DNA of 64,000 nucleotides from Acidobacteriota bacterium (GTDB lineage: Bacteria > Acidobacteriota > Blastocatellia > Pyrinomonadales > Pyrinomonadaceae), in NCBI GenBank assembly GCA_025463135.1, contig JAOAPY010000031.1, positions 1-64,000 on the forward strand, read 5' to 3'. Positions 12,511 to 52,279 of this stretch are shown here, in pieces (the first letter of the stretch is position 1; each line of letters starts with the position of its first letter). The notes below the pieces were generated by a model. The model had not been told where the DNA came from, did no database searches, and saw only the letters and a list, made by a program, of their open reading frames with translations. The position numbers and the translations under genes were made by a program.

Positions 12511-12516
12511 AGTACA

Positions 12517-13470: not shown

Positions 13471-13511
13471 TTACCGAGCCCGGTTTTGTAACTGCCTGGT
13501 TGCAGTCGTGA

Positions 13512-13867: not shown

Positions 13868-13930
13868 GGTCTTTGGTCTTTGGTCTTTGGTCTTTGGTCT
13901 TTGCTCTTAGTTCTTTGCTCTTTGGTTTCT
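13868..13930. repeat. Heptad tandem array, GGTCTTT type
   Basis: Nine consecutive 7-bp units are in exact phase. The first five are identical GGTCTTT (13868-13902); the rest are variants such as GCTCTTA, GTTCTTT and GCTCTTT. It lies between cutA and the DUF2007 gene. The same unit reappears in the inverted pair at 60705-60830. Confidence 0.9.
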
Positions 13931-14607: not shown

Positions 14608-15531
14608 TGTACGTGCAAACGGTATTTCCTCGAAATGCGTCATCTGTTTGAAGGTGCGAAAGCGAGTGTTGATTTCATCCGGCGTTAGTCGTTTCACCCG
14701 TTCAGTACCGAATTCTTCCACATTGAACGAGGCCATGACAGAACCAAAAATCATCGCGCGGCGCATAGCCGCCTCGTCCAGCGCCTCCTGGCTGGCAAGA
14801 TATCCCATGAAACCACCGGCGAAGGTGTCGCCCGCGCCTGTCGGATCGAATACAGCTTCCAGTGGATAGGCGGGAATGGCAAAGTAGTTGTCCTTCGTAA
14901 ATAATGCTGCTCCGTATTCACCGCGTTTCACGACCAGCGCTTTCGGTCCCCACGAGAGAATTTTGCGCGCGGCTTTTATGAGATTGGGAATGTCAGTCAA
15001 TTGTCGCGCTTCCGCGTCGTTGATGATCATTACATCCACGCACTCAATGGTTTTCTGCAAAGACTCGCGCGTGCTCCCAATCCACAAATTCATCGTGTCC
15101 AACGCGACCAATTCTGCATTTGGTACCTGCTCGCGCACTTCGCGTTGCAGATCCGGCTGGATGTTGCCGAGGAAAAGCAGACGCGATTTTTTGGCGGCTT
15201 CTGAAAGCTTCGGCTTGAATTCGGCAAAAACATTCAATTGCGTGTCGAGCGTATGGGCCACGTTGAGATCGTAGTCATAGCGACCGCGCCAGCGAAAAGT
15301 CTTGCCCTCTGGAATACACTCGAGGTCGCTCGTATCGATGCCGTGAGTAGCAAAAACATCTCGCTCCTCAGCGCCAAAGTCGCCGCCGACGACCGCCACC
15401 AGACGGACATCAGTAAAGTAACTGGCCGAGATCGAGAAATGCGATGCTGAGCCACCCAGCATCTTCTCGCACTTGCCGAAAGGCGTTTCCACTTCATCAA
15501 AGGCAACTGAACCGACTGCGAGTAAGGACAT
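14590..15531 (-). CDS. PfkB-family carbohydrate/nucleoside kinase
   Basis: A 313-residue sugar-kinase fold. The substrate-binding motif MLGGSASHFSISAS lies at about 24-37. The catalytic block DPTGAGDTFAGG carries the base Asp235. KRGEYGA near 200 is also typical. The sequence is closest in style to adenosine/ribokinase-like members seen beside nucleoside salvage genes, and mtnP is nearby. The substrate cannot be read from the sequence. The last residues VVSSQ and the stop come from the heptad repeat, so the ancestral C-terminus has probably been replaced. Confidence 0.88.
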   Translation of the reverse strand: MSLLAVGSVAFDEVETPFGKCEKMLGGSASHFSISASYFTDVRLVAVVGGDFGAEERDVFATHGIDTSDLECIPEGKTFRWRGRYDYDLNVAHTLDTQLNVFAEFKPKLSEAAKKSRLLFLGNIQPDLQREVREQVPNAELVALDTMNLWIGSTRESLQKTIECVDVMIINDAEARQLTDIPNLIKAARKILSWGPKALVVKRGEYGAALFTKDNYFAIPAYPLEAVFDPTGAGDTFAGGFMGYLASQEALDEAAMRRAMIFGSVMASFNVEEFGTERVKRLTPDEINTRFRTFKQMTHFEEIPFARTVVSSQ

Positions 15532-23772: not shown

Positions 23773-23877
23773 CTGCCTTCTGCCTTCTGCCTTCTGCCTT
23801 CTGCCTTCTGCCTTCTGCCTTCTGCCTTCTGCCTTCTGCCTTCTGCCTTCTGCCTTCTGCCTTCTGCCTTCTGCTTT
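23773..23877. repeat. Heptad tandem array, CTGCCTT x15
   Basis: Fourteen perfect tandem copies of CTGCCTT (23773-23870) plus one variant CTGCTTT, giving exactly 105 bp. Looser CCTCCTG-type copies follow to about 23900. It occupies most of the gap between rluB and scpB, which both read leftward. The near-perfect copies imply recent expansion or active homogenisation. Confidence 0.95.
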
Positions 23878-23908
23878 CCGCCTCCTGCCTCCTGCCCCTG
23901 CCGCCTCT

Positions 23909-27459: not shown

Positions 27460-28641
27460 TCAACCAAGCAAAATGCCATGAATGCCCGCGGCCAGACTGT
27501 AAACCGAGTCATTGGTCACGACCACCATCTCGCCCAGCGCGCTGAAAGCCAATCCCACCAGGTTCACGCCTGCCACAAAAACCTCAGCCTTCTGACCGTC
27601 GGGAGTGATCCGCACAATGCCTCGCCGTCCACGCAATGTCGCGGCCACGTATAGATTGCCGTTTGTGTCAAAGGCCAATCCCTGCGGTCGCCCCAAACCG
27701 CGATAGAACACGCTCACATTTCCGTCTCGATCGATTCGGTTTACCACATCAAAGCTCGTGACTGTTGGACCAGTCACGTATAGAGCATCGTCAGGGCCGA
27801 AGGCCAGGTGATAAGCCGAAACCGATGGCTCAAGCTGGGCCCAGCTTTGGTCCTCTCCAATTTCATTCACCTTAAAGATGGTGCCGTTTCTATCACCAAC
27901 ATACATCTGGCCCAACGAATCAAAAGCGAGACCAGTGGCAACTCCGAGATTCTTGGCAAACGGGACCGCTTCCTTAAACGGCGTCACCCGATAGACGTTT
28001 CCCTCCAATCGGCTGGTGACAAACATCTGGCCTTCTTTATCAAAGGCTATGGCCGTCGGATTCGTTATGTCGCCCAGGAACTCCGTCAATTCCCCGTCAA
28101 CGTCGATGCGAAAAAGCGAGACCGGCAACTGCTCTCCACGCGAACCCGACCGCGTGACAAACAGCGAGCCGTCATCCGGATCGAAAGCGGGACTGGTAAC
28201 GGGATGCAGGTCTTCGGCAATACGCCGGCCGGCGAGAAACTGAGCTGGCTCGCTGCTCTCTCCCTGGCTTTCGAGCACCACCTCCACCGTTCGGCCGGCT
28301 TCTGTGCTTTGCTCTATGCCCTCCGCCCCTTGCCCTTCGCTCCCTGCCCCTTGCCCTTCGCTCCCTGCCCTTTGCCCTTCGCTCTTTGCTCTTTGCCCCT
28401 TGCCCCTCTTAATCTCCGGCACAATCGCCAACACACGCTTCGTCGACAGCGCCACCAACGGCGCCACCTCACCATCCATCATCACCGCACACTGCGATGG
28501 TTCACTGGTATCGAGCCCCACGCACTCGATCACCACCTCGCCCCCCGGAATCCCGGCCCCCGGCTCAATCCGCAGTATCCTTCCTGCCTTATTCAATCGC
28601 TGGTCCATCCCCATTAACCCATTCCTGTGGTCCAATGCCAA
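27460..28641 (-). CDS. IPT/TIG plus SMP-30/NHL-type beta-propeller protein
   Basis: A 393-residue protein without an obvious signal peptide. Residues about 20-130 resemble an IPT/TIG beta-sandwich (GIPGGEVVIEC, VLAIVPEI, VEVVLESQGESSEPAQF). Residues about 150-390 hold repeated propeller blades: PTAIAFDKEGQMFVTS, ATGLAFDSLGQMYVGD, AYHLAFGPDDALYVTG and PQGLAFDTNGNLYVAA. The IPT domain is split by a Gly/Ser/Glu/Gln-rich insert (about 79-113) encoded by heptad DNA repeats. It may bind a ligand or act as a lactonase-like propeller; catalysis is not evident. Confidence 0.82.
   Translation of the reverse strand: MALDHRNGLMGMDQRLNKAGRILRIEPGAGIPGGEVVIECVGLDTSEPSQCAVMMDGEVAPLVALSTKRVLAIVPEIKRGKGQRAKSEGQRAGSEGQGAGSEGQGAEGIEQSTEAGRTVEVVLESQGESSEPAQFLAGRRIAEDLHPVTSPAFDPDDGSLFVTRSGSRGEQLPVSLFRIDVDGELTEFLGDITNPTAIAFDKEGQMFVTSRLEGNVYRVTPFKEAVPFAKNLGVATGLAFDSLGQMYVGDRNGTIFKVNEIGEDQSWAQLEPSVSAYHLAFGPDDALYVTGPTVTSFDVVNRIDRDGNVSVFYRGLGRPQGLAFDTNGNLYVAATLRGRRGIVRITPDGQKAEVFVAGVNLVGLAFSALGEMVVVTNDSVYSLAAGIHGILLG
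28304..28408. repeat. Heptad array inside a coding sequence (105 bp)
   Basis: Fifteen in-phase heptads such as GCCCTTC, GCTCCCT and GCTCTTT lie within the beta-propeller gene. At 105 bp the block equals 35 codons and keeps the frame. It encodes GSEGQGA-type 7-residue repeats that interrupt the IPT domain between IVPEI and VEVVLES. Confidence 0.85.
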
Positions 28642-28849: not shown

Positions 28850-29206
28850 CTAGCGGGGCCGAAGCGGTATCCGAATGCTTTTTTCGGCCGAAAGTTTAAT
28901 TTCCTTCTGACCTCGCGCATTGTTGGCATTGAGAATGGCGGGTTCGCTGACGCCAAAGCGTGATGCCAAACCTTCAACGGATTGCAGAGGCAAAGAAGAG
29001 ATCGGCGCCTTGACAGTGTAATAAATGAATCCTCGCTCAGCCAGGAAGGTGCTACTACCTCTCAACTTCTCTCCGGAAACGATTGAGCCCGGTTGGGTCC
29101 CTGCAAGATTGGCTGAACCCAACCAGGACGCGAGGCCCAATACTCCTAACAAAAGCATCGGACCCACTAACCAGATTCTGTTATCACCAGGAACCAGTTG
29201 CATCAT
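28850..29206 (-). CDS. Small membrane-anchored LysM-like protein (A)
   Basis: A 118-residue protein with one N-terminal transmembrane helix (about 11-32) and an outside domain. The C-terminal half (about 60-118) has a LysM-like outline: ERGFIYYTVKAP, then SVEGLASRFGVSEPAILNAN and a closing IRIPLRPR strand. It shares this outline with the next gene upstream (29203), so the two look like paralogues. It is the last gene of the cell-wall cluster and overlaps its predecessor by 4 nt. It probably binds peptidoglycan. Confidence 0.7.
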   Translation of the reverse strand: MMQLVPGDNRIWLVGPMLLLGVLGLASWLGSANLAGTQPGSIVSGEKLRGSSTFLAERGFIYYTVKAPISSLPLQSVEGLASRFGVSEPAILNANNARGQKEIKLSAEKSIRIPLRPR

Positions 29207-29616
29207 TGAATAGGAATCCTTACTTCCTGACCGGTTTCAAGTTTGAATTGAGATTTTTCCAAGTCTGACGAATTCAGGCCTTTCCGGTCGCGATCCAGCG
29301 TGGCCGCTGCAATCCCCTTCCAGCCGCCGGCCACGCCAAAGCGGTCTGCGATCGCCGAATACCAATAACGTTTTCCCGTTCCGGCAATCCGATAGCGAAT
29401 GTATCCGCGACTTCTGGCAAAATCCGCTTCAACCTGATTTTGTCCGTATGACACAACAATCCCGGGCTTATTCGCACGATTTCCAAAAGCGACTAACCAA
29501 AAGCCAATGACAGCCAGAACCAACAACGCCGAAAAGACCGCCGTCCTTTTGGCCAGCAACGAAGTCAACCTCAGGCGAGGTCTGCCCCTGCGTAGAATCT
29601 TACTGCGATCCGCCAT
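29203..29616 (-). CDS. Small membrane-anchored LysM-like protein (B)
   Basis: A 137-residue protein: basic cytosolic start (RRGRPRLRLTSLLAKR), one transmembrane helix (about 25-46) and an external domain. Shared features with protein A are ARSRGYIRYRIAG, AIADRFGVAGGWKGIAAAT and the final GQEVRIPIQ. The central repeat-like region is degenerate, so LysM is a tentative call. It overlaps the PP2C-LysM gene by 17 nt and protein A by 4 nt, so all three are translationally coupled. Confidence 0.68.
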   Translation of the reverse strand: MADRSKILRRGRPRLRLTSLLAKRTAVFSALLVLAVIGFWLVAFGNRANKPGIVVSYGQNQVEADFARSRGYIRYRIAGTGKRYWYSAIADRFGVAGGWKGIAAATLDRDRKGLNSSDLEKSQFKLETGQEVRIPIQ

Positions 29617-31300
29617 TTGCGTTTTTGTTAGGCAGCTTCAACTTCTGGCCGACGCTCAATTTGCCATTCTTTACTTCCGGATTGGTCTTGAGGATATCCT
29701 CCTTGGTAACGTTGTACTTGGCGGCGATCTTCTCAAGAGTATCGCCGGGCATTACCGGCACTTCCAAAATCACATCATCGTTTTGCGGCCGCGGTGTCCT
29801 GGAAGCCGTTTCGCCGGCACCGCGTTGTGTCACACCCAGACTGGTCAAGTATTCTCCGACTTGCTTAAACGTCAACATTTCCTTTTCTTGCGGTGCGCCG
29901 CCTCGGATGGGAGTGGCCAGCATCAGTTCCACTCGGTCGATCTGCCCGTTGGGGTCTGTTCTGATCACTGCTACGGTATTCTCCGATGCTTTGACACGCC
30001 ACAACTCGCCGGTTCCTCCGCTTCCGGACATATAACCTGTTAGCCAAGCCAGGAAGAATCCCAGCGATATCAGTATTATCGCAGTAGCCAAAGTCGGAAT
30101 GACTCTGCGCCAATTGATAGAATCACCTGGGTCTGGTCGGGGCGGGTGCATTCCAAGAATAGTGCCGGGCGTCGATTCTATGTTTGGCTGCGCCGGTCGT
30201 TCCGCCGGTTCGATGCGCTTTTGAGACAACCAGGTCGGATCAGCGGCCATTAACTGATCGATGGTTTGCTTCACCGCGTCCGCGTCAAGGCTATTCGATT
30301 TTCGGCCGCCTTTTCCTTCCTTCTTTGAGTTACCTCTATTTTCCAAAGCTTCGATTCGGCTTTTGAGTTGTCCCAGCGACGCCAACTGGCCTGTTGCCGC
30401 CATCTCGGAATGAGACGATAGAGCGCTCAACGAAGCAGACGATTCCCGGATCTGTCTCTCCAGTTCGGCTGTTCTGCCTGCCAGGTCATTATTGAGCTCG
30501 TTCTGATTTTCATTAATTGTTCCGAGCTGGTTTTGCAATTCGGACATTTCCTGTTGTACGCGCTTGGCAAGGGGATCCTCCCGGGCCGCCTCGTAGGGAC
30601 CTTTTATTACCGCCAACGTCCGGTCATCTTGCACTGCAGCCGTAAGTTGAATAAGCGCCTCATAGATTTCCCGCGGTTCCGCGGATGCAAGCCGGCGCAG
30701 CTCGCGGAGCCGATCAGGTGGTGCCAGGACCTCTTCCACACCATCACTAAACATCAGGACCGTGTCGGAATCTTTCAGACTAATTCTCTGTGTCCTGTCG
30801 ACCAGGGGTGAGTCAAAGTATTTGGCACCCAACTGCTCAGGATTCTCCTCAATCGGTCTGAGATGTTCGTTTGGTTCCGAAACGATAGTCAACGTTTGAT
30901 ACTTTGCTCCGTTCAACAAAATGAGGTTGTTGCCGTCAAAGATATTCACGCGCGCGTCGCCATAGGTAAGGCAGGTGAGTACGTTCGCATCCAGCAGGCA
31001 CAGCGCCGCGACGCAGTTAAGCCTGCCGGCGCAAAACTCTTGTCCCATCCGGTAAACGTAATTGTTGAGCTCTTTTGCCACATAACCCAAAAAGAGCTCT
31101 GACGTCATGCCCTCTAAAGTATCGAGCTGATCAATCAAGGTAGCAAAGTCACTGCGCAGTTTGAGACCGAAATTCTCATAGTTGTAGCCCGCGAAATCCA
31201 GCACCACGCATAAAAGTCCGTATTTGGTTTTCTTGCTGAAGTAGACGTCCTCGTTCTGACTCTTACTCGCTTCCTTGACAGAGTCACCATGGTATTGCAT
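29600..31300 (-). CDS. PP2C-type phosphatase fused to a transmembrane segment and LysM
   Basis: 566 residues, with a strong GGAGGTGA ribosome site 6 nt before the ATG. Residues 1-235 follow the PP2C fold: NEDVYF (Asp18), VVLDFAGY (Asp35, where DGMGG is usual), MFSDGVEEVL (Asp186) and QDDRTLAVI (Asp225/226). The metal ligands are thus largely kept, but the DGxG motif is altered. A coiled coil follows (about 245-325), then a Pro-rich linker, a single transmembrane helix (about 399-421) and an external LysM (about 512-556: VMPGDTLEKIAAKYNVTKED). A cytosolic phosphatase tied to a periplasmic wall-binding domain fits a role in sensing peptidoglycan. It is cotranscribed with the kinase-like gene. 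Confidence 0.82.
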   Translation of the reverse strand: MQYHGDSVKEASKSQNEDVYFSKKTKYGLLCVVLDFAGYNYENFGLKLRSDFATLIDQLDTLEGMTSELFLGYVAKELNNYVYRMGQEFCAGRLNCVAALCLLDANVLTCLTYGDARVNIFDGNNLILLNGAKYQTLTIVSEPNEHLRPIEENPEQLGAKYFDSPLVDRTQRISLKDSDTVLMFSDGVEEVLAPPDRLRELRRLASAEPREIYEALIQLTAAVQDDRTLAVIKGPYEAAREDPLAKRVQQEMSELQNQLGTINENQNELNNDLAGRTAELERQIRESSASLSALSSHSEMAATGQLASLGQLKSRIEALENRGNSKKEGKGGRKSNSLDADAVKQTIDQLMAADPTWLSQKRIEPAERPAQPNIESTPGTILGMHPPRPDPGDSINWRRVIPTLATAIILISLGFFLAWLTGYMSGSGGTGELWRVKASENTVAVIRTDPNGQIDRVELMLATPIRGGAPQEKEMLTFKQVGEYLTSLGVTQRGAGETASRTPRPQNDDVILEVPVMPGDTLEKIAAKYNVTKEDILKTNPEVKNGKLSVGQKLKLPNKNANGGSQ

Positions 31301-31306
31301 AAGTCC

Positions 31307-32344
31307 TCACCTCCAAAAACTTGACAGTTCCCCGTGGATCTCACACGCGAGTTTGTCTTCCTCTGCTTTGGTTACAGTGCGCAATAAATTGCGGGCCCGC
31401 ATTGCACTTTGAAATTGTGGTTCGCCGGTGTTCGTAAGGCGGGTTGCGAGCATTCGCCAGAGCCTGCGCCTAATCTCGGATAGTTTGATGCGGTCCGCGG
31501 GAGATGGTGCCAACATTTCCTGCACGAGATTTACAAAATCGATTCGTTCTTCGTCGCTAAAGCTACCTTCCTGCGGATTACTTGTCGCCCTTATTCGCGC
31601 TTGTACGGGCGGATCCTCGATGTGACCTCCGTCAAGCAGACTCACAGTCAGATACCCCAGGCTATATGAATGGTAGGCATCCGGTTGCAGTTCCCTGGCG
31701 GCTGCAACCAAGCCGTCAAACATACCCATATTGGGTCGAAAGTTCTGGTAAATCAGGTCATAACGTTCGCCCTCGGGTGGACGAAAGCCGCGGTCCGTCG
31801 GTATACAGATCTTTCTCCTGGGAAGGTCCTCGGGCTGTAACAAATCGGTGAAGTCAATCAAGCGCAGCCCGCCCTGTGCGTCGAGTCGCAATGATTGCTG
31901 TTTCAAATCGAAATAAATTCGCCCGTCCCGGCTAAAGTAACCAAAGACATCAGCGAGGTTCAAAACACAGGCCAGCACTTCGATGAATGAAGGACCCTGA
32001 AACTCATACGGGAAATACGATATCAATATCGCCAGGGGAAGATGTCCGCCCTCAAAGAAACCATTGATCAACTTGGGAAAGATCGGATGCCGGTCATAGT
32101 GGCGTTGACTATAGTTCGTCCACTCCACCACACCACCTTCTCGTTCGCTGCGCCCGAGGTGATAGCATTTTAGAAGATACTCCTCTCCCTTCCGCCTCAC
32201 GAGGCAACTCAGGCGCGTGTAGGCGCCGCCGAATGCCGGACGATTGAAGTGATCGGTCGGCAGTTCGAAATCCTCGTCGCCCCAAAAATCCTTTAGCCAT
32301 CCGAAAACCTTCGGCCGCTCGTCAACTGAGGATAACGTGGCCAT
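31307..32344 (-). CDS. Divergent protein kinase-like protein
   Basis: 346 residues from the ATG at 32344, chosen for GGGAGG about 10 nt upstream; a TTG at 32437 has no ribosome site. The sequence follows the protein kinase fold in order: a Gly-poor loop FGGAYTRLSCLV (38-49), YLLKCY with Lys59 as the ATP lysine, YFDLKQQS (Asp146, Lys148) in place of HRDLKxxN, LIDFTD (Asp164) in place of DFG, and GFRPPE (186-191) in place of the APE region, then DAYHSYSLG for helix F. The catalytic Asp and metal Asp remain while His-Arg and the Asn are lost. It may be a weak kinase or a pseudokinase. It lacks a membrane segment and PASTA domains. Confidence 0.72.
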   Translation of the reverse strand: MATLSSVDERPKVFGWLKDFWGDEDFELPTDHFNRPAFGGAYTRLSCLVRRKGEEYLLKCYHLGRSEREGGVVEWTNYSQRHYDRHPIFPKLINGFFEGGHLPLAILISYFPYEFQGPSFIEVLACVLNLADVFGYFSRDGRIYFDLKQQSLRLDAQGGLRLIDFTDLLQPEDLPRRKICIPTDRGFRPPEGERYDLIYQNFRPNMGMFDGLVAAARELQPDAYHSYSLGYLTVSLLDGGHIEDPPVQARIRATSNPQEGSFSDEERIDFVNLVQEMLAPSPADRIKLSEIRRRLWRMLATRLTNTGEPQFQSAMRARNLLRTVTKAEEDKLACEIHGELSSFWR

Positions 32345-32396
32345 TAACTGAGAGCCTCCCTCGAGTAAGCACAGCGGACTAGCCGCTTTCGCCGGG

Positions 32397-34289
32397 TTAT
32401 TGGATCGGACGTAGTGTGTGTCGGGTGGCGATATCAAAATACGAAGTCCCGATTATCAAACCGTTGCTGACGCCGTTGAACTCGACGCCGGGAATCTCCA
32501 CCAGCTCACGCAGACCTTTGGGCCAGGGCCACGGTCCACTTCGCCACTGCCCGGTGGCCGAGGGTTTCACAAACAAGGGCAATTCGCCGCCGCTCAACAG
32601 CACTAATTTGAATACCGGATAATCCTGGAGATCGGTATCGACATACTTGATAACTACATTACCGCTGCGGCTTAGATATTGATCCTGAGTCTTGCTGAAC
32701 AGAGGTGTCCCGCGCATCATCACATCAGTTCTATGCTGTCTGCCAATCACCCAACTGTTGGCGCTACCCTTTACCACCGGCAAGGATTCCGAGGGACAGT
32801 CCTCCGAGCGCTCGTAAGACAGTCGGCCGATGACTTCTTGAGGAAGTCCGTTTGTCAGCCAGATAAAACGCATGCGACCGATTGTCACGAAGGTTCGCTC
32901 CTCGAGGAGGTACGTGTTCGGCAGGATCTGCTGCGGAGGCTCAACGGTGATATTGCTACTTCCATCCAAGTCCACAACGTATGAGTTGCCGTCATGCGAG
33001 GCATATAAGTAGACCTTGCCCTCGAGTCGGATAGCGCTGACACAAGTGATGGCATTGTTCTGTAGGTGGGCTTCCAATTCCTGCGGTGGCTTGAAGTCTC
33101 TCGGCAAGACTCGCCCTACAAGTTTTATCGAAGGAGGAAGCTCTGGCAGACCGGTAACTTGAGAGATGGTGATATTTGGGTGCTCCATGACTTCGAGGGT
33201 GCACGACCAACCGTCTCGATCTTGAAGACCAAGTTGCCAGGTCGCTGGTTGCGTGTTCGGCATTTGGTTAATCGGGCGACCGGCCCGATCAGCGAGAGTC
33301 TTGCGGACCGGAAACTGGTCTGGCGACAATACCCTCAACTGATACCACTCATCTGACGGCATTCCCTCGACCTGAATGTCATCATAAGCGTTTGGTCCTA
33401 TAAAGAAGACGCTGGTGGCCCGGCCTTCAATGACGCAAATCGTATCGCCGCGCCCAACGCTCTTGCTCCTTTGCGACTCGCGAGTGTGCGGATTAACATT
33501 GGCACTTCCCTGAACATATATTTGCGCAATCACCCGTGGATCCTTGCCCTGGTCGCGCAGGCGAACGACCTCGACGGCCAAACTCTCGCGGCCTACCACA
33601 CAAGGTTCGGTCTCATTCTCTACCGGATGGAGCAGGACCTCGACGAGGCGGGCAACCTTCGCGGCGTTGATACGATTCCGGTAGGTAACCTCAACCACCT
33701 CCGTATTGGCTGGTACCAGGGTCCTCAGGCCCGGTTCAATCATTAGCGAGCCAGGCGAGGAACTTTTTACCAGATAGTTCTGGCCGGCAATCGTGACTAC
33801 ACTGCCGGCGAGAATTGCGCCGGCACCGACCGGAATGGTCCTGGTACCGGCAGTGAGATCGGGGCCGGCAATGATTCGGTGGCGGCGCGCGACGCCTACA
33901 TTGTCGTCCGCGGTCGCCTGCGTCCATACGCTGGCGCCAATCTTGTCACGCAGATAAGAATCGAAAACTCCATGTTGGTCCTGAACCATCTCTTGTATGA
34001 GGTCGCCGGCAATTTCATCTGCCTTCAGTGAAGCAAACGCCTGAAAGGTGCTGGGTGGATAAACCACGTAGAAGGTCTGAACGAAGATATCGCTGATCGC
34101 AGTGGCGTCCGGCTGGCGAGTGATAATTGATTTAGTATTGAAGGGTCTCGGTGGATCGCAGTTATTTTCGATGAGTGTCCAAATTGCTGATTTTATGATC
34201 TCACTGGCAGACTGGCCGCGCTTTATTGTGAGTGGCACACGGCGGCCTGCATGGGGATCGGATGGGTTATTTGATGAAAAGAATTTCAT
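32397..34289 (-). CDS. Large protein with FHA-like segments (cluster protein 2)
   Basis: 630 residues, no signal peptide or membrane helix, so cytosolic. I do not recognise a family overall. The N-terminal 200 residues are mixed helix and strand. Segments resembling the FHA beta-sandwich are seen at about 300-380 (FFIGPNAYDDIQVEG, VRKTLADRAGRPI) and near the end (about 505-590: SWVIGRQHRTDVMM, QYLSRSGNVVIKYVD). The SR-S/N pair in the latter resembles phosphothreonine-binding FHA loops. It lies between another such protein and the kinase-like gene. I infer a phospho-dependent scaffold; this is a weak sequence-based call. Confidence 0.6.
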   Translation of the reverse strand: MKFFSSNNPSDPHAGRRVPLTIKRGQSASEIIKSAIWTLIENNCDPPRPFNTKSIITRQPDATAISDIFVQTFYVVYPPSTFQAFASLKADEIAGDLIQEMVQDQHGVFDSYLRDKIGASVWTQATADDNVGVARRHRIIAGPDLTAGTRTIPVGAGAILAGSVVTIAGQNYLVKSSSPGSLMIEPGLRTLVPANTEVVEVTYRNRINAAKVARLVEVLLHPVENETEPCVVGRESLAVEVVRLRDQGKDPRVIAQIYVQGSANVNPHTRESQRSKSVGRGDTICVIEGRATSVFFIGPNAYDDIQVEGMPSDEWYQLRVLSPDQFPVRKTLADRAGRPINQMPNTQPATWQLGLQDRDGWSCTLEVMEHPNITISQVTGLPELPPSIKLVGRVLPRDFKPPQELEAHLQNNAITCVSAIRLEGKVYLYASHDGNSYVVDLDGSSNITVEPPQQILPNTYLLEERTFVTIGRMRFIWLTNGLPQEVIGRLSYERSEDCPSESLPVVKGSANSWVIGRQHRTDVMMRGTPLFSKTQDQYLSRSGNVVIKYVDTDLQDYPVFKLVLLSGGELPLFVKPSATGQWRSGPWPWPKGLRELVEIPGVEFNGVSNGLIIGTSYFDIATRHTLRPIQ

Positions 34290-34349
34290 GTTGACATCTC
34301 AAGAATGAATAAGTTCTCTCACTGATGGAACTTCTTCCCAGGCCACCTC

Positions 34350-35969
34350 TCAAGAGAGTTCGGCAATATGGATTGACTGGTAGAGACCACTCCAATGCGT
34401 TTGCAGGTCGTAAGCTTTGCCATTAGGTGCCAGTGAGAAGACCGACGAGCCAAAAGTAAATTTACAAGGAGCTTCCAACTTCACCGAGTCTGTTTCATCG
34501 CGAGTGTGTCGACAGTGCCATTCTTGTCCCTGCAGTGTAAAAAGAGTGCGCAAGGCTGAGGTTGACGCCACCGCGATGTCGAAAGAACCTCGACCATTCG
34601 ATCTAACCAAAATGCTGCCGCGACGGCTCAATAGTTCATCATCACGATATTCCGTGAGCAAGGGAACTTTGCCGGTCGCAATTACACCAGTCCCCGCGAC
34701 TACGCCGTCCATGGTTTCATCAGCAGGAATTCGTCGAGTACGCTTTCGCTGTTTGTCTTCGCTGCTCTCCTCAAAAATAAGGAAACCATAAAAGGTTCCG
34801 GTTGGATCAACCTGCCACGTGTATTGAGTACCGCCGATAGTCTGACCATCCTCCAGCTCGAGACTGGTACCTTTTCCTTCATCTTCCAGGGAGACAATGC
34901 CCTTTTCATCTGCCACAATCGACATATTGGCGGCCAATCTGAGCGACACCACGATGCGCCGCGCGGCTGTACTCAGTCCACACCAGTCCGAACCATAGCC
35001 GCCTTTTCCGTCTCCATTTCCTCTGGGCAGGACCCTCGCAATTACTTTCAGAACAAAATCGGATTGCTTCAACCGGCGCTGTATGATGCTGCCAAACTTA
35101 CTCGATTCATGCCCATCAGAAATATTGTTTGGCAGATAGCGCAGAGTGAAGTCAAGACCCTCGACAGAGTCACCTTTCACCTTCATTCCACTGTCGGCGG
35201 TGATTCCTCCTCGGTGGGGATCGAAAGTGATCCAGCAAGCTGACGTTAACGAATCTGCCAGCAGGTCACATCCCGGATGCGGCCCGATCAAAATCCTGTT
35301 GGCGCCCTCCGTCAAGTACAGATGCGAGTCTCTCCCACGCACACCGCGCTGGCTCAGATCCATGTGCGGCGCGATCGCGACATTCCCTTCACAAACTAAC
35401 TTCCCATAGACCTCTTCCCGATCACCGACTACCGGCAACACGCGAGTGAGGGTGGTGAAACGTCCCTGGGCAGTCAGGTCTGACGCTTCTTCACATAAGA
35501 AAATGTCCGCATCAACGCTAAACCAATCTTGAGCGGTCGAGCCCGGCGCGCTTTTCCTGAGCCGGCAGCGAAAGGGCCGCTCGGGCTCGTCAAGGGTTAA
35601 GGCGAAACCCCAGTCAGTCAACATCGCCTGTTGTACCCCGGCTGATTTCAAGTCGCCCTTAAGAGCGTTCCGCAGAACAACGAGCCCCAGCTTCTTCAAT
35701 TCGAGTCTGACGTTCCACGAGTTAAATGAGTTCCGATCTTCAGGCGAGTAGAGCAAGTAAAGCGCCACCGCCCAGTTCTTGTCGTCGTGTAGATTCGAGA
35801 AGACCACCTCGAATCTCTCCATAACTCCATCAGCGAGTTGCTCATCGATGACGCCTCGGTGATAAAGCGTGTCCCAGGCTGGACGGGGAGCACGTTGATT
35901 ACCATTCGGGAGTGGCTCGCGATGCGCGTCGGTGTGGTGCAGGCGTTTGAGTAACCTCTTGAAATTCAT
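34350..35969 (-). CDS. Large protein with FHA-like segments (cluster protein 1)
   Basis: 539 residues, soluble and probably cytosolic. No family is recognised. The clearest FHA-like stretch is at about 220-285 (RILIGPHPGCDLL, ITFDPHRGGITADSG), followed by similar beta patterns at about 350-400 (IVSLEDEGKGTSLELEDG) and 440-530 (LLSRRGSILVRSNGRG). The repeated build suggests several beta-sandwich domains in a row. It starts 10 nt after the SEDS-PBP gene, so the two are surely co-transcribed. By analogy with FhaA/FhaB next to rodA-pbpA in actinobacteria it may link the kinase to the synthase. Confidence 0.6.
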   Translation of the reverse strand: MNFKRLLKRLHHTDAHREPLPNGNQRAPRPAWDTLYHRGVIDEQLADGVMERFEVVFSNLHDDKNWAVALYLLYSPEDRNSFNSWNVRLELKKLGLVVLRNALKGDLKSAGVQQAMLTDWGFALTLDEPERPFRCRLRKSAPGSTAQDWFSVDADIFLCEEASDLTAQGRFTTLTRVLPVVGDREEVYGKLVCEGNVAIAPHMDLSQRGVRGRDSHLYLTEGANRILIGPHPGCDLLADSLTSACWITFDPHRGGITADSGMKVKGDSVEGLDFTLRYLPNNISDGHESSKFGSIIQRRLKQSDFVLKVIARVLPRGNGDGKGGYGSDWCGLSTAARRIVVSLRLAANMSIVADEKGIVSLEDEGKGTSLELEDGQTIGGTQYTWQVDPTGTFYGFLIFEESSEDKQRKRTRRIPADETMDGVVAGTGVIATGKVPLLTEYRDDELLSRRGSILVRSNGRGSFDIAVASTSALRTLFTLQGQEWHCRHTRDETDSVKLEAPCKFTFGSSVFSLAPNGKAYDLQTHWSGLYQSIHIAELS

Positions 35970-35979
35970 TTACAACACG

Positions 35980-38900
35980 CTACCTAAAGGCATTCCTGTT
36001 CCATCCAAAATGTTCATTCAGAACGCTCATTAGCCGCGCGGCCAGGAGTGTCGCGCGGCCGGAGTCTCCTTTCTTATTACCTTTCTCAATAAAGATCGAA
36101 ACTACGACACCTTGTCGCAGAACTCGAGTTACCGGGTTATACATGCCGGCAGCGAATATGATGTTTGAATCGTTTCGTCCGCTTTTGTACTGCCCCTCCA
36201 GCGTCCCTGTTTTGGCAAAAACTGCGAAACGTTCTCCATTCTGCGTCAGACTGCCTGAATTGATCGCACTGATGGCAGGGAAGAGTGCGGCGGCAGTACC
36301 GCCGGGGCGCGCCACTCCTTCCAGAGCATCCAAGAGCGCCGGACGCACGACATCGAAGGCATTGTCTAACTTGTCGAACTGCGGCGTCGACTCGGGCCGC
36401 ACCATCGTAGCCTGGACACGCCGACCAGTGACCAGCCGCGAGAAAGCTTCAGCGGTCTTTACATTGCTCCACAGGTTTGTGTTGCCACCCAGGCAGACCC
36501 CAACGAATCCGCGCGCGGTTCGAACATTATTTAGCGCGAGATTTGTGGACTCGGGAGAGATAAACGAGAGTCCTGAGCTTTGAACTGGCAGCAGCGACTT
36601 CTTCTGTGCGTCTTGCCAGACCTCAATCATAGGCTCGGCGTCAGGGCCTGAGACCTGGATATCGAAAAGCCCGTTAAGCCGGCTTGCCAACAAAGAGTTT
36701 TCGATCTTAAGAGCCTCACCCGTTTTAGAGTCGAACACATCAGTAAAGTCAGGCTGAAGCGTTCGGAACTGGCCATCAATCTGGTAGCGCAAGGGTACGG
36801 TATGATTCAAGAATCTGAGGCGGCTATCTGAACTGTTGGACAAGCCGAGAAAGCCCGTCGTAACCGCAAAGAGATTATTCGATTCGGAAAAAAATCGGTT
36901 CCAGCCGGTAATTCCGCGCGCGCCTCCCAACCAATCTGGAGTGGTGGGAATCCCAAGGACCTGGTTGTATTGTCCGGCATTATCGTCGACGACAAGTGTT
37001 AGGACTTGAGGGAACGCGCAGGCGGCAGCGCTGGCAATAAACGGCTTGGTGGCCGATCCGATAACATGCCGCGTGAGATTGTGGTTCAGGAGGTACCGTC
37101 TGCTTTCCGGGCTGCGGCTGGCAAGGAGACTGGTATAGGAGCGGGGATTGCTTTTTTCCTGATCGGCCGGTTGTGGATTGGGATCAAATGCCGGCCAACT
37201 CGCCAGCGCCAATACCTCACCTGTCTGCGGGTTCATTGCGGTTACGGCGAGCCGCGGCGTCAAGCCACGCCGCTTGTTAACTTCCTGCCATAGTCCCTGG
37301 GATTCTCCGCTCTTGTCCTTGTAACCCTCGGCCTCTCTTACCAGCAAGTTGTAAATTTGGCGATTGAGTTCTGGTTCGAGCGGCAGCCTAAGGGATTGCT
37401 CGGCTGATTTCTTAGCATCTTCCCGTAAATTGGTTATGGACTGCTGGCTAACGTGGCTGTTGATCGCGTCAATGATAGGCCGCGCCAGGGCGAACACTTC
37501 TCCCTGCGGGAAAGTATATTCTTCGCGCCCATTGAGCCAGTGGCTTTTTGCAAGGAGACCCGGTGACTCGTTACGAAAAGCGAAGACCAGGGTTCGATTG
37601 AGCGTCTGTGGCGATCCCTTAATAGCGATAATGTCGCCGGGCTCGAGCCGGGTCTTATCGCGAACTTCCTGTCCGTTGACGTAAGTGAACTCTGAGTGCG
37701 GCTCCAGCACTGTGTCAGCTTCGATGGAGTAAATATCAAAGAGATGCTTGGCTGGTTGATTGCCGACTTCATCGCATTTGCCGGCGCATACCTTAAACCG
37801 CCGGCTGGTCAGGAATTCGCCCGGAAAAACCGCGCGCCCGGGAGTGATTACCGCCGCCTTTTCGTCGTTGATGCCCGGTATTGGTTTGTCCGAATCGATC
37901 ACGTGAGGCAGAAACAAATTGATTCCCTCACCTGCAAGATAACCTCGCATTTGACCGTCCGTTCCGGACAAGAGATCGCCGTGCCACCTAACCCGTGCGA
38001 GAAATGGTGAAGGCCGTCTGAAATAATTTTGATCGACTGTCAACACCGTCTCTCGATAACGATCGTCCGGACCTTCGCCGCCAAATACATCTTCATCAAG
38101 AACCTGTTCGCTGAGAACGAAGAAGTATTTTCCGGACCGCTTCTCTTCCGCTGTGCCGGCATTGAATTGATCTCGCAAGAGACGGAGATATTGCTTCTCG
38201 GCAAGTCCTTTGGCCTGCGCCGTTTTCAAACTAAGCTGTTCTGTTTTCTTGTCGAGTTCGATTAGGCCGTCGGTAATGTATTGTTTGGCTTTGGCCACGA
38301 AGGCGCCCAGGTCGTAGTCACCACGATGGAGGTTGTCATTCGACGCCCTGACTGACCAGTAACAAACCGCTGGGAAGAATAGCAGCGAGAAAACTCCGGC
38401 AATCAGCAGGAGCCACTTGTTGAGCATGTTTCCGCCACCGGCAAAAGCTAGTAACGGGTTCTGCCCGTTATCAGGAAGATCCTGTCGGCCATTCCCAAGA
38501 ACGCTGAAGGCCATGGCAAGCAAAAAACCAATAAGCAGTATGTCGGCTGTGGAGTTCAAACTGAGAAGAGGTAAATTTTTTCCCGTAAAGGGTAAGCCAT
38601 TGACATTGCCGGAAGCGTGATAAAAAGCGCCGAAGAGAATTGTTAGTGCGATGCCCCCCACAATCAAAGTGGGCTCCAACTCGTTTCCGAAGTGCTGTGA
38701 GAGGATGAAGAGTAGCAACAGGGTCAGGTAAAGGTAGAGGGATAGCAAGGCGATCCCACCCCAACTGCCATGCTCTGCCAGGACATAGATGCTGTAGGTG
38801 TTATCGCTTTGCGCTATGCCGTCAGCGAAAGGCACACGCTCTATTGGAGCTTCGCCGTAACCAACACCAGTGGATCCGCGAGCTGCAAAATGGAACATGG

Positions 38901-41259
38901 TCCAAAAGTGCTCGTTCACCGCCATGAGTCGACGTGCCGCGCTCGCGTTCACAGCACACGCCGGCCGCGACCCCCCGAAACTGAGAGCTTGGCGAGCTTT
39001 TTGCAGCAGACCAGCCTCGCGATCGTCGTCCTTCGCTTCCAGCACTGCTTCCTGCAACCAACCAGTGTTTTGGTAGGCAAGGTATCTATATTCAACTGTG
39101 CTGCCCTGCGGGAGAACGGCGCCAAGGTTCTGCGTAAAGAGTGATGTCCCAAAGAACAAGAACAAGACTACCGCTGAAAAAGCCGTCACACCGGCCGAAA
39201 CGCCAGGGTGGGCTCGCCATGAGACAACCACCGCCAGGAAAAAAATGGGCACTGAGTAAATCAAGAATCCCCAATCGCCGACGACAACTGCTTCAGCAAA
39301 ATACATCAGGTTAGGTAACGCCAGCCATAAATGCGAAAGAGGCTTGGGTGGCTTGCCCGCCACGCCGAAGTGCTCATGAAAGAACCACATGAAAAGACGG
39401 CAGGAGCCGAGAAATAAACAGGGTAGATAAATCAGTTCAGCACGCAAGCCGGTGAATGGAATGACCTCCGTCCCGAAGCCTCCCAATCTCAGCAGTACAG
39501 GCAGCCCGAGCGGCACTGCAAAAAGAACAATGATGTCCACGCGTCCTTCCTTTGCGAGCCAATCAACAAGTGGCTCCTTGCCACGATTCCAACTCTGGAC
39601 GGTGGAAAACAGGAAGGCGATTATTACGGACACCACAAAGAACCCGAGCATTAGGGCGAACCTTGCCGCAGAGGCGACTCCTACCATCCAGAGCAACGCG
39701 AATGAGATCAGCATGTACATTAAAGGGGGCGCAGTGAAAATCGTCTTCGCGATGTTCATTCCAGCACGCCCAAAGATTTTGCGCTGATCGGCAACGTAGC
39801 CCGTCATGTCAAAAGGTTCGCTAAGCTCGCGCACATGAAGCCAAACAAAGATTGCGAAGGGGATAAAGATGAGGGCGAAAAGCGCCTTTTCATAACTCTC
39901 TTCGTAGGCTGGAGGCAAAACGTACGCGCGATAACTAAGAACAAGTCTAATAGCCAGCATCATCTGTACTGTCGGTACGAGCGCGAACAGGTAATTGCGA
40001 TTGGCAATTCCGCCAAAGAAAAAGAACACCAGGGTTACGACAGCCCAGACGACGCCAATGGAAATCAAGGGCCGCCATTGTGACATTCGCTCATCCGTCA
40101 AGCTGAGCACGATGCCACCGTCGCTGGATCCAAGGGCGGCGGTTTCACTCGCACCGAACGACCGCAACTCCATGCCGCTGTTCAACGCGAACTGCTTAAC
40201 TATGCCACCTTCAAATTTGTACTTGAGTGATCCCTTTATCAACTCGCGGTTACGCTCACCGAATGGGAGTTGGTACGCGGGATTGGCACTGGTCGGGGCC
40301 GAGGAAATAAAGACTTCGGCATCGGTGTTCGATCCTGCCACGGGTTGATAAAGTGGGTAACTAAGCCGGTGTTCGGGCCGAACGTAAATCCGATTACTTG
40401 AAGGATCCAGCTCAATTGTGAAGCCCGTGGTCCTCCTCCCGGTGCCATAGACAAGCTTGTCGCCGCTCTTGATCGTGAACTTGATTTCAGGCACAAGTTC
40501 AACGCCGTCAACTTTGACTGATTCTGTGGAACCATTGACCAGGCCCAGTGTCCACCAGTCTTTTCGCACGAGCCAAACGTGGTCTAATGGATTTTCCGCG
40601 TGAGCCGAATTTCCTGGATCGGCGCCGCCGGGAGCGATGGGCTGAGCAGACATGCTGAGCTTTTGTTGCGCCTTTCGATCAAGACCATAGCGGCAAAGCA
40701 ACTCGCCAATCGTGAGTGCGGAGCCTGAGTCTGGCCATGAAAACGGATACGCTGCCGGCCCGATAACAAAGCGACTTCGCAAGAAAAGACCATTCTCAAA
40801 CTTGAGCGTGACCCCGCCAATAGTCAGTTCATTACCAGACTCAAGCGGACGAATGTTGACGATTTGATCATTGTGACGAAGAGGGCGCGCCGTCCCTTTC
40901 GCTGTGACCTCCAAAGTTGATCGACGATCATCGTACCCCGCAATCCTGATGGTGGGGTTATCCTGCGTCGAATCGTCCTCGCCCCGAAGCAAAAGTGAAG
41001 GCGCGTAATAGTCAGCGGTGGCCGGATCTCCGCTGATTAGAATTGAGGTTTTGAGCGGAAAATACTGGCCCTGAATTTCCAGCTTACCGGTAGTTACGAA
41101 CGGGGCAAGGTGTCGATAATGATAGATGACGACCAGCAGGGAAAACATCATCAAGATCAAGAAGCACAAGCGTCGCCATCGCTGATTCCTGTACTTAAGA
41201 TCGATGACTATAGAGATCACCGAGAAAACGAGAAACACGAAAATGGAAAGTGCAAACAT
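35980..41259 (-). CDS. SEDS glycosyltransferase fused to class B penicillin-binding protein
   Basis: 1759 residues, the largest gene here. Two N-terminal helices (about 1-21 and 31-48) precede a beta-rich domain (about 50-385) with FHA-like patterns (130-157 and 236-272, for example ESVKVDGVELV then KSGDKLVYG). The SEDS core of the RodA/FtsW type follows (about 390-930): the catalytic Asp819 lies in QSDNTYSIYVLAEHG, and LPFTGKNLPLLS matches the conserved end block. A single helix near 950 leads to a periplasmic bPBP: dimerisation region, then transpeptidase with SATK (Ser1402, Lys1405), SNN (1460-1462) and KTG (1683-1685). All catalytic motifs are kept. One polypeptide would polymerise glycan strands and cross-link them. 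Normally these are separate proteins (RodA-PBP2 or FtsW-FtsI). Confidence 0.88.
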   Translation of the reverse strand: MFALSIFVFLVFSVISIVIDLKYRNQRWRRLCFLILMMFSLLVVIYHYRHLAPFVTTGKLEIQGQYFPLKTSILISGDPATADYYAPSLLLRGEDDSTQDNPTIRIAGYDDRRSTLEVTAKGTARPLRHNDQIVNIRPLESGNELTIGGVTLKFENGLFLRSRFVIGPAAYPFSWPDSGSALTIGELLCRYGLDRKAQQKLSMSAQPIAPGGADPGNSAHAENPLDHVWLVRKDWWTLGLVNGSTESVKVDGVELVPEIKFTIKSGDKLVYGTGRRTTGFTIELDPSSNRIYVRPEHRLSYPLYQPVAGSNTDAEVFISSAPTSANPAYQLPFGERNRELIKGSLKYKFEGGIVKQFALNSGMELRSFGASETAALGSSDGGIVLSLTDERMSQWRPLISIGVVWAVVTLVFFFFGGIANRNYLFALVPTVQMMLAIRLVLSYRAYVLPPAYEESYEKALFALIFIPFAIFVWLHVRELSEPFDMTGYVADQRKIFGRAGMNIAKTIFTAPPLMYMLISFALLWMVGVASAARFALMLGFFVVSVIIAFLFSTVQSWNRGKEPLVDWLAKEGRVDIIVLFAVPLGLPVLLRLGGFGTEVIPFTGLRAELIYLPCLFLGSCRLFMWFFHEHFGVAGKPPKPLSHLWLALPNLMYFAEAVVVGDWGFLIYSVPIFFLAVVVSWRAHPGVSAGVTAFSAVVLFLFFGTSLFTQNLGAVLPQGSTVEYRYLAYQNTGWLQEAVLEAKDDDREAGLLQKARQALSFGGSRPACAVNASAARRLMAVNEHFWTMFHFAARGSTGVGYGEAPIERVPFADGIAQSDNTYSIYVLAEHGSWGGIALLSLYLYLTLLLLFILSQHFGNELEPTLIVGGIALTILFGAFYHASGNVNGLPFTGKNLPLLSLNSTADILLIGFLLAMAFSVLGNGRQDLPDNGQNPLLAFAGGGNMLNKWLLLIAGVFSLLFFPAVCYWSVRASNDNLHRGDYDLGAFVAKAKQYITDGLIELDKKTEQLSLKTAQAKGLAEKQYLRLLRDQFNAGTAEEKRSGKYFFVLSEQVLDEDVFGGEGPDDRYRETVLTVDQNYFRRPSPFLARVRWHGDLLSGTDGQMRGYLAGEGINLFLPHVIDSDKPIPGINDEKAAVITPGRAVFPGEFLTSRRFKVCAGKCDEVGNQPAKHLFDIYSIEADTVLEPHSEFTYVNGQEVRDKTRLEPGDIIAIKGSPQTLNRTLVFAFRNESPGLLAKSHWLNGREEYTFPQGEVFALARPIIDAINSHVSQQSITNLREDAKKSAEQSLRLPLEPELNRQIYNLLVREAEGYKDKSGESQGLWQEVNKRRGLTPRLAVTAMNPQTGEVLALASWPAFDPNPQPADQEKSNPRSYTSLLASRSPESRRYLLNHNLTRHVIGSATKPFIASAAACAFPQVLTLVVDDNAGQYNQVLGIPTTPDWLGGARGITGWNRFFSESNNLFAVTTGFLGLSNSSDSRLRFLNHTVPLRYQIDGQFRTLQPDFTDVFDSKTGEALKIENSLLASRLNGLFDIQVSGPDAEPMIEVWQDAQKKSLLPVQSSGLSFISPESTNLALNNVRTARGFVGVCLGGNTNLWSNVKTAEAFSRLVTGRRVQATMVRPESTPQFDKLDNAFDVVRPALLDALEGVARPGGTAAALFPAISAINSGSLTQNGERFAVFAKTGTLEGQYKSGRNDSNIIFAAGMYNPVTRVLRQGVVVSIFIEKGNKKGDSGRATLLAARLMSVLNEHFGWNRNAFR

Positions 41260-41343
41260 TGAGAGTCACCACCCATTTCTGGTTGAGAGAAAAGGATCGA
41301 TCCTACCCTCTGAGGCCAGCTCGCTTGAACCTTCTTAATCTAA

Positions 41344-41366
41344 GTCAACCGGCACAGCCGGTTGAC
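41344..41366 (-). promoter_or_regulatory. Leader hairpin of the cell-wall cluster
   Basis: GTCAACCGGC and GCCGGTTGAC form a perfect 10-bp stem with a 3-nt loop. AATCT/AGATT on either side can extend it after small bulges. It lies in the predicted leader, 85 nt before the SEDS-PBP start and downstream of the promoter at 41493. It could be an operator palindrome, an attenuator or a stability element. Confidence 0.6.
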
Positions 41367-41492
41367 ACAAGATTAATAGGAATCAACTGTTCCCTCAGCG
41401 AGCAATACTGGAATCTCGAATCGCGGGGAATGTGGGTTTTGCGAGCGCTTACTGCTTAGCCTGAGAGTTTCCAAATGAGAACGAGGTGTCGA

Positions 41493-41521
41493 ACAATAAG
41501 TCCTATCTAAAACTTTGTCAA
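41493..41521 (-). promoter_or_regulatory. Promoter of the SEDS-PBP cluster
   Basis: TTGACA (41521-41516), a 17-nt spacer and TATTGT (41498-41493) on the minus strand. It points at the SEDS-PBP gene and implies a leader of about 225 nt that includes the hairpin. No other promoter as good was seen within the seven-gene run. Confidence 0.6.
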
Positions 41522-49832: not shown

Positions 49833-52223
49833 CTAACGACGAGTCGCCGTCGTACGATCGGCGCTGCGGGGGACGACGTAGATTCCCGCAGAATGCGAAC
49901 CGACAAACAGCGTTCCCTGATTCTGGGAGTCTATTGCCAGGGCCCAAATCCGCAGACTCGGCAAGCGTCGATCCTTCGGATCAATCCTGGTCCAGGACAA
50001 CCCGGCATTTGCAGAATGGTAAACACCTCCACCCGATTCTCCATTCTGATAGGCATTGCCGACAAAGAGCTCGTCGCCATTTCGCGGATTAACGAGGATG
50101 CTTGTGAAATCTCCAAACGGGAGATTGCCTCCTCGTCGTTGCCAGTGTTGGCCCGCGTCGTGTGAAGAATAGAATGCCTGTTTGGTTCCTACGTAGACAT
50201 AACTCGGCCGCTGTGGATCCTGAACAATCACATTGATCGGTGCATCGGTCGGAATTCCATCCACCTGCCGCCATGACCTGCCAGCGTCGGTCGATACCAG
50301 AACACCGGACGAGGCTGTTCCTGCCCAGATAGTATCGGGGAGCTTGCTGTTAGCGCTGATCGCGGTGGTGTGCAGATCGAACCCTGGGCCAAAGGGAAGT
50401 TTGCGCCAGCCCTTAGCTGGGTCGAACGTCTTGTACAATCCGGAATTGGTGGCGGCAAGCATAACGGACTTTTGGCTTTCTGAATCCGTCGTTTGGACCA
50501 ACTCTGTAATCGCATCGGTCAGGAGCAAAGACGAACCCTCGCCTGCACCTACAGCCGCTGACCCATCGCTGCCGCTGAGGCCGAGGGCAGCCAAAGTGAC
50601 GTTGTCCAACTCGCCGGTGACGGGAAGACTCTTATCTGTCTGGTAACGCCTGACGGCGGCCACTGTCTGAACGCCGGCATGGCCATCGGGAATTCCTACC
50701 GGATAGCCGGCGGCATTCAGGGCTTCCTGAGCGCGGCGCACGCTCTCGCTCGCTCGCTTGGCCACCGGTGGACGCTTTGCCGCCGGTGCGCGTCGGACCG
50801 GCGCTCGGCCTTTGCGTCGTGGCGGCGCTGTTGGCTTCAGTTCGACCGGCCGGGTTCCAGCCCACACTGGAGCCCACGAAATACCCCGATCAAGCGAGCG
50901 GTAGACCCCCAAATTAGTGCCCAGGAAAATTGTGTCCGGATCGACGGCATCTTGAAGAATCGAATAACTGATCAAGCGCGAAGGCATGTTGCGCATTGAG
51001 GGATGCCAGTTTTGTCCGCTATCATCGCTCACAAAAAAGAAGCCGCCGCCTGTCGTGGTATTGATCGTGCTCGCATAGACCCTGTTGGGCATCGCACGAT
51101 CGGAAAGAATCGCATTTGCGAAGCGACCGCTGTACCCGCCGTTGCTGGGAACAAAACTTTTCCCACCATCGTTGGAAATCATCACGCCGTAGTTATTCGT
51201 TCCGATATAAACCGTTTCAGGATGCGACGGATGAACAGCGATGGAATTAACTTCCAATTGGCGCGACGTCGTCACCATCCAGGAGTCCGCGTCGCCGCCT
51301 TTTTCTGACCGCCAGAACCCTTCGGTGGTACCGGCAAAGACCACACCGGGTAATGATGGGTGCTGCATAATGGCGCGGGTGCGGCGCGATTGCGACGGAA
51401 TTCCCTGCACCTTCTTCCAATTGCCGCCGGCGTTGCGCGTCTCATAGATACCGCTGCATGCTGAGGCGATGATGTGATTCCGATCGCGTGGATCAATGTC
51501 TATCGCAAAAATATCCGAGTCATCGATGATGCCATTCTTAATGATGGACCAGCTCTTACCACCATCGGTTGTCTTGTAAGGAAGATACCAGGTGCCGGCA
51601 TAAATAATATTGGCGTTGGCGGGATCGATTGCCAGCGATTCGACATGGACCAGTCCCTGGGTATTGTAGGTGGGCAACTGACTCCAGCTGGTCCCCGAGT
51701 CGTCTGAACGAAAGATGCCGTTGAAGGTACCGGCAATCAAAATATTGGGATCGAAAACCGACTGCGCCAGCGAATGTATAGCTTCATTGCGGAGTTCCCT
51801 GCTCTCGCGCCATTTGCGTCCGCCGTCAGTGGATTTGAAAAAGCCGCCTGCCTCCTTGTGACGATGCGCTCCCACATACAGCGTGTTGGAATCGCGCGGG
51901 TCGACAAGTATATGGTCGACGAACAGTCTGGGAATATTGAAATTGTAAAGCAACCGCCAGGTCCTGGCGCCGTCAGTCGAAGTGTAGATTTGCCCATCGA
52001 GCGTGCCGAAATAAAAACGAGAAGCATCTCTTGGGTCAACCACCAACGCCCGCACGTCCCCTCCCGGCGGGCCGGTTGAGCGCCAATCCTCCGCATACAA
52101 GATGGGTTCGGAATCAAGCGGTGGTCCATCAGCGGCCGCAGTCGAGCGGCCGACAATTCCCATGCTGCCGGTCACCAAAAATAAAATGAAAAGGGTAATT
52201 TGAAAAACTTTATGTAGCTTCAT
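49833..52223 (-). CDS. Exported BNR/VPS10-type beta-propeller with peptidoglycan-binding domain
   Basis: About 796 residues from the ATG at 52223, chosen because a signal peptide follows (HKVFQITLFILFLVTGSMGI). Many Asp-box/BNR-like repeats (S-x-D-G-G-x-x-W) are seen: STDGARTWRLL, STDGGRKWRE, TTDGGKSWSI, SNDGGKSFVP, STDAGRSWRQV and SHDAGQHWQRR. The repeats form two propeller halves. Between them (about 490-550) lies a peptidoglycan-binding-1 domain: VRRAQEALNAAGYPVG and VRRYQTDKSLPVTGELDN. A basic Pro/Ala/Arg linker precedes it. It is probably periplasmic or surface-exposed. The combination suggests a wall-bound sensor or scaffold rather than a sialidase. Confidence 0.85.
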   Translation of the reverse strand: MKLHKVFQITLFILFLVTGSMGIVGRSTAAADGPPLDSEPILYAEDWRSTGPPGGDVRALVVDPRDASRFYFGTLDGQIYTSTDGARTWRLLYNFNIPRLFVDHILVDPRDSNTLYVGAHRHKEAGGFFKSTDGGRKWRESRELRNEAIHSLAQSVFDPNILIAGTFNGIFRSDDSGTSWSQLPTYNTQGLVHVESLAIDPANANIIYAGTWYLPYKTTDGGKSWSIIKNGIIDDSDIFAIDIDPRDRNHIIASACSGIYETRNAGGNWKKVQGIPSQSRRTRAIMQHPSLPGVVFAGTTEGFWRSEKGGDADSWMVTTSRQLEVNSIAVHPSHPETVYIGTNNYGVMISNDGGKSFVPSNGGYSGRFANAILSDRAMPNRVYASTINTTTGGGFFFVSDDSGQNWHPSMRNMPSRLISYSILQDAVDPDTIFLGTNLGVYRSLDRGISWAPVWAGTRPVELKPTAPPRRKGRAPVRRAPAAKRPPVAKRASESVRRAQEALNAAGYPVGIPDGHAGVQTVAAVRRYQTDKSLPVTGELDNVTLAALGLSGSDGSAAVGAGEGSSLLLTDAITELVQTTDSESQKSVMLAATNSGLYKTFDPAKGWRKLPFGPGFDLHTTAISANSKLPDTIWAGTASSGVLVSTDAGRSWRQVDGIPTDAPINVIVQDPQRPSYVYVGTKQAFYSSHDAGQHWQRRGGNLPFGDFTSILVNPRNGDELFVGNAYQNGESGGGVYHSANAGLSWTRIDPKDRRLPSLRIWALAIDSQNQGTLFVGSHSAGIYVVPRSADRTTATRR

Positions 52224-52279
52224 ACAACAATTTCTCTCGATCAGGAACAATGCTTTGGGAACGCGTCGCCTCGATTAGT

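Follow-up and report, generated by a model that had tools for sequence, protein, structure and literature searches.

A seven-gene cluster encoding a predicted SEDS-class B PBP fusion, a kinase-like protein and a PP2C-LysM phosphatase in an Acidobacteriota genome

The window analysed here is a 64,000-nucleotide stretch of a contig from a soil-type bacterium of the Acidobacteriota, and positions refer to it unless another locus is named. Between positions 28850 and 41259 it contains seven ORFs, all reading leftward (Table 1). P0001 and P0002 are separated by 10 nt, and P0002 and P0003 by 60 nt. The spacing of P0003 and P0004 is a 53-nt gap if P0004 starts at the ATG at 32344, which is preceded by a GGGAGG-type ribosome site, or a 41-nt overlap if the TTG is used. 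P0004 and P0005 are 6 nt apart, and further downstream the genes overlap by 17 nt and then by 4 nt. The initial annotation had described a seven-gene cell-wall cluster read from one promoter. The genes are real and operon-like; the single promoter is unproven. A TTGACA-17-TATTGT match lies at 41521-41493, where the originally annotated region ends, and promoter-like matches were no commoner than in shuffled sequences (5 found, 8.2 expected). Terminator and promoter scans gave nothing beyond chance level. GC3 in 28850-41259 is slightly lower (0.53-0.60) than in the flanking genes examined (0.60-0.65).

Table 1. Features of the cluster, and the corresponding genes of genome G185 (positions on its own locus, L058)
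Feature	Position	Strand	Description	Basis
P0007	28850..29206	-	118 aa, single TM, LysM-like	Pfam; position matches G185 P0012
P0006	29203..29616	-	137 aa, single TM, P0007 paralogue	hhalign
P0005	29600..31300	-	PP2C/SpoIIE-type phosphatase, coiled coil, one TM (400-418), C-terminal LysM (517-557)	Pfam, motifs
P0004	31307..32344 (TTG start 32437 possible)	-	divergent protein-kinase fold	phmmer, motifs
P0003	32397..34289	-	630 aa, orphan	without FHA signal
P0002	34350..35969	-	539 aa, soluble orphan	marginal FHA signal only
P0001	35980..41259	-	SEDS glycosyltransferase and class B PBP fusion, 1759 aa	Pfam, TIGR02614, profile-profile, Foldseek
P0001 transpeptidase domain	35983..37248	-	SATK (1402-1405), SNN (1460-1462), KTG (1683-1685)	Pfam, motif comparison
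P0001 Asp 819	38803..38805	-	invariant Asp, SEDS loop	sequence comparison, profile alignment
P0001 soluble domain	40069..41115	-	aa 49-397, between predicted TM2 and TM3	hydropathy, positive-inside
G185 SEDS	11046-13682			
G185 PBP	8765-11053			
G185 kinase	6643-8730			
G185 PP2C-LysM	5387-6664			
G185 LysM	5103-5390			

P0001, which had been read as a SEDS-PBP fusion, carries both parts. Its transpeptidase domain matched Pfam Transpeptidase above the cut-off (1.8e-5), and the SxxK, SxN and KTG motifs that mark a class B PBP were invariant in all ten sequences compared. The match to the FtsW model TIGR02614 (4.4e-5) fell under that model's cut-off. When a profile of the N-terminal half, built on seven members, was aligned with canonical SEDS proteins of the same clade using hhalign, a match of E 2e-9 over 298 columns was obtained. 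A structural model of this half (7 sequences) was poor, with a pLDDT of 42, and was used solely for Foldseek retrieval of SEDS structures; the best matches were E. coli RodA, WaaL ligase and FtsW. The fold match is accompanied by the Asp of the large SEDS loop, kept in 10 of the 10 sequences compared, which in the profile alignment precedes the canonical catalytic Asp by about two residues. Because of this displacement polymerase activity is likely but not certain.

Natural SEDS-PBP fusions in a single ORF have been mentioned previously (PMC10449877), and P0001 shares this organisation. In comparison with those fusions, known here by mention only, P0001 has two extra N-terminal TMs and an adjoining domain of about 350 aa, which hydropathy and the positive-inside rule predict to lie outside the membrane. 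Its PBP stalk is longer and includes an FHA-like segment, and its gene sits in a regulatory operon. An FHA-like half motif is present in the soluble domain near aa 242-290. Identity to the nearest kin is 25% or less.

A kinase-like protein had been proposed for P0004, and phmmer matched it to 112 protein kinase sequences in the PDB (best 6e-4). The ATP-binding Lys, an HRD-type Asp and a PPE motif are retained; DFG is replaced by DFT, losing the Gly, and the catalytic Asn is missing. P0004 may therefore not phosphorylate anything, and is possibly a pseudokinase. The corresponding protein (P0010) of G185, a genome from another Acidobacteriota class, has lost these residues too (DFS, no Asn). P0004 has neither a PASTA domain nor a convincing TM, in agreement with the earlier statement that no PASTA kinase is present.

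The wall-binding domain had been placed on the phosphatase rather than the kinase, and P0005 does carry both a PP2C/SpoIIE domain and a LysM. Pfam matched LysM at 4.4e-11 and SpoIIE at 9.4e-6, and the PP2C metal-binding motifs are kept (NED, LDFAG, SDG, DDRT). The LysM is predicted to be outside, with the PP2C domain on the other side of the single TM. The description of the two small membrane proteins as LysM-like was confirmed. P0007 matched Pfam LysM just under the cut-off (0.0046), and its positional counterpart in G185, P0012, matched at 5e-8. P0006 gave no Pfam LysM match and is assigned by paralogy with P0007 (hhalign score 29.5 over 96 columns, reached by 0 of 40 shuffles). PP2C-LysM proteins that stand alone, each bearing two LysM-like segments, are encoded in G137 (L045 6590-8803) and G009 (L046 6251-8008). 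Both have lost SDG (TPG and TRG, respectively), which suggests that they are inactive wall-binding pseudophosphatases.

For P0002 and P0003, the two large proteins in the middle of the cluster, the FHA-like segments originally seen were not confirmed. Neither protein, whole or in pieces, matched FHA or FhaA_N in Pfam even at E 10, and neither matched the PDB. Against a local FHA profile P0003 scored at the level of shuffled sequences, and P0002 was marginally above every shuffle. Single-sequence AlphaFold prediction of P0003 gave a mean pLDDT of 32, too low to use. No homologues of P0002 were found in 119 genomes of the family, where a match to an MnmA-type tRNA gene was dismissed as chance, and none of P0003 in nine selected genomes. 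The clearest FHA-like scores, though weak, came from P0001, where hhalign to the FHA profile gave 29.3 for aa 50-395 and 27.2 for aa 1100-1300. Of 145 natural non-FHA segments, the one that scored highest reached 20.9; it was the counterpart region of the G185 SEDS protein. The segment at aa 1100-1300 also gave a partial Pfam FHA match below the cut-off (0.005). Both P0001 segments are predicted to lie outside the membrane, so they could not read cytoplasmic phospho-threonine.

A canonical cluster is present on another contig of the same genome. At C24 (L033 5331-14204) the order is fhaA-pbpA-rodA-pstP-pkn-fhaA, intact, with matches to FhaA_N and FHA, class B PBP, SEDS, PP2C, Pkinase, and again FhaA_N and FHA. 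Four further genomes of the class have similar clusters, which vary in gene content and order; we know of no description of such a cluster in Acidobacteriota. RodA and FtsW are also encoded elsewhere in the genome. The window copy is thus an extra one. In a PBP tree, eleven canonical PBPs formed a branch with 100/100 support, and seven divergent PBPs, including that of the window, fell apart from it; one long-branched row in this tree is unsurely placed, and support at the base of the divergent group is weak. By this comparison the window SEDS-PBP belongs to a separate deep lineage.

That lineage is rare. A profile of the fusion found it in 4 of 396 genomes of the phylum, and a PP2C-LysM profile in 3 of 396. 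Fusions occur in G024, G025, G417, G563, G564 and one contig of a MAG labelled Chloroflexi, and unfused SEDS/PBP pairs in G185, G382 and G554. The test of conserved synteny gave a divided answer. The complete seven-gene order was found in no relative, and in most close relatives the cluster is missing entirely; a five-part set in G185 (SEDS, PBP, a kinase protein with a TM, PP2C-LysM and LysM) is unfused, reads in one direction and keeps the order of the window, its SEDS and PBP genes overlapping by 8 nt. The contigs of G024 and G025 end at the fusion.

In G564 and G563 the fusion is directly followed, with a 4-nt overlap, by a small membrane protein resembling the G185 LysM protein (E 2e-5 and 3e-4, respectively). 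An unassigned protein comes next, and then a Zn-ribbon DO-GTPase2 (5e-12 in G564). In G564 this is followed by a GAP1 protein, a partial match below the cut-off. Upstream of the SEDS and PBP genes of G554 lie a DO-GTPase2 (7e-9) and a GAP1-N2 protein whose match was just under the cut-off (5e-4), and G417 encodes a P-loop protein that resembles the G564 GTPase in pairwise comparison (1.6e-4). The core conserved across these neighbourhoods is the SEDS-PBP, often accompanied by a small LysM protein, and the control module varies. From two cases with kinase/PP2C (the window and G185) and three with DO-GTPase2/GAP1 (G564, G563 and G554, two of which belong to one genus), the regulator seems exchangeable.

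We favour, with slightly better than even confidence, the reading that the window operon specifies an accessory peptidoglycan synthase of a deep SEDS-class B PBP lineage, placed under wall-sensing phospho-control by a regulator that seems interchangeable across Acidobacteriota. It builds on domain content, active-site conservation and a recurring neighbourhood, from which we infer enzyme activity, phosphorylation and wall sensing. The SEDS half of P0001 would polymerise lipid II and the PBP half would crosslink the strand, at a level set by intracellular phospho-signalling. P0004 and the orphan soluble proteins P0002 and P0003 would act on P0001 or relay the signal to it; since P0002 and P0003 have no detectable kin, the role given to them is a guess. 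P0005 would read the state of the wall through its LysM domain and reverse the signal, and P0006 and P0007 would anchor or position P0001 on the glycan. The positions of the G417 fusion, away from kinase/PP2C genes, and of the PP2C-LysM genes of G009 and G137, away from SEDS-PBP, count against this explanation.

A further reading, which we put forward tentatively and as somewhat unlikely, is that this is a separate, undescribed Acidobacteriota SEDS-PBP lineage whose interchangeable switch modules (kinase/PP2C-LysM or DO-GTPase/GAP1) would, on firing, lay down an emergency or barrier wall, as distinct from growth-linked synthesis. Limited searching of the open-licence literature found no paper on this gene arrangement.

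Another explanation, which we consider unlikely, is that the SEDS-PBP lineage carries out wall synthesis for NTP-dependent switch systems (GAP1-N2/DO-GTPase, kinase-PP2C-vWA), serving stress or conflict and not growth. Kaur et al. 2020 (PMC7159879) described GAP1-N2 systems with Zn-ribbon GTPases, FNIII proteins and HSP70, and one of their themes comprises kinase, PP2C and vWA. SEDS-PBP genes of the window lineage sit among such genes, with DO-GTPase2 and GAP1 adjoining in G564 and G554 and DO-GTPase2 in G563, and the kinase and PP2C of the window correspond to the theme described there. A weak SrfB-like match, below the cut-off (0.0025), lies upstream in G564, and the fusion on the Chloroflexi-labelled contig (L054) has vWA, kinase-FHA and Zn-ribbon-FHA genes at a distance of 3.6 kb. 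Given that distance, and at least one intervening gene on the opposite strand, the L054 genes were not counted as an operon with the fusion. No further fusion copies were found in the family of the Chloroflexi record, so the L054 copy may have arrived by transfer or sit on a misplaced contig. Against this explanation, the window genome gave no DO-GTPase2 match, the window cluster contains no recognised GAP1, DO-GTPase or vWA gene, and the conflict function of GAP1-N2 systems is itself a prediction.

The initial annotation took the cluster to be a rearranged actinobacterial module, that is, the fhaA-fhaB-pstP-rodA-pbpA-pknA-pknB locus (PMC6554272) fused and shuffled but with the same housekeeping job. 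The two share clustered genes for SEDS (RodA), class B PBP, a transmembrane PP2C phosphatase (PstP; the PP2C/SpoIIE fold of P0005) and a kinase fold, and the SEDS halves are homologous to the SEDS of the canonical cluster. Unlike the actinobacterial locus, the window has SEDS and PBP fused, LysM on the phosphatase, a kinase without PASTA, TM or a full set of catalytic residues, and no FHA protein confirmed by sequence in P0002 or P0003; genes of the FhaA type are at C24, in the separate canonical version. With that module intact and the window PBP placed outside the canonical clade, the window operon is additional and not a rearranged canonical copy. Nearly all close relatives lack the window cluster, and we regard a fused and shuffled housekeeping module as quite improbable. 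An origin by duplication of the C24 cluster finds no support in gene order or in the PBP tree. A paralogue that is degenerating or non-catalytic, serving as a scaffold or decoy synthase alongside a pseudokinase, would fit the fast divergence, the motif losses of P0004 and the slightly low GC3, but is very improbable given that every catalytic motif of the PBP and the metal residues of the PP2C are kept, over 1759 codons without a stop.

SEDS-PBP pairs are core builders of the bacterial wall and a drug target. A ready-fused lineage beyond the housekeeping pairs, with swappable control, would give a compact natural setting in which to study the switching of SEDS-PBP activity. It would also tie wall synthesis to GAP1/DO-GTPase systems, whose purpose has so far only been predicted. 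The link to GAP1-N2 GTPases is a new angle, as a text search of the founding paper (PMC7159879) for penicillin-binding protein, FtsW and LysM found none of these terms.

Two other kinds of feature were observed in the window. Arrays of 7-base units (GGTCTTT, CTGCCTT, GCCCCTT and others) occur at 13868-13926, 14437-14609, 23773-23896, 28317-28407 and 60794-60831; the array at 28317-28407 has a 21-base period and lies in frame in an NHL/SGL-type ORF (27460-28641), where it encodes a SEGQGAG repeat. An ORF at 49833-52250 contains propeller repeats of the sortilin/BNR type with a peptidoglycan-binding domain inserted between them.
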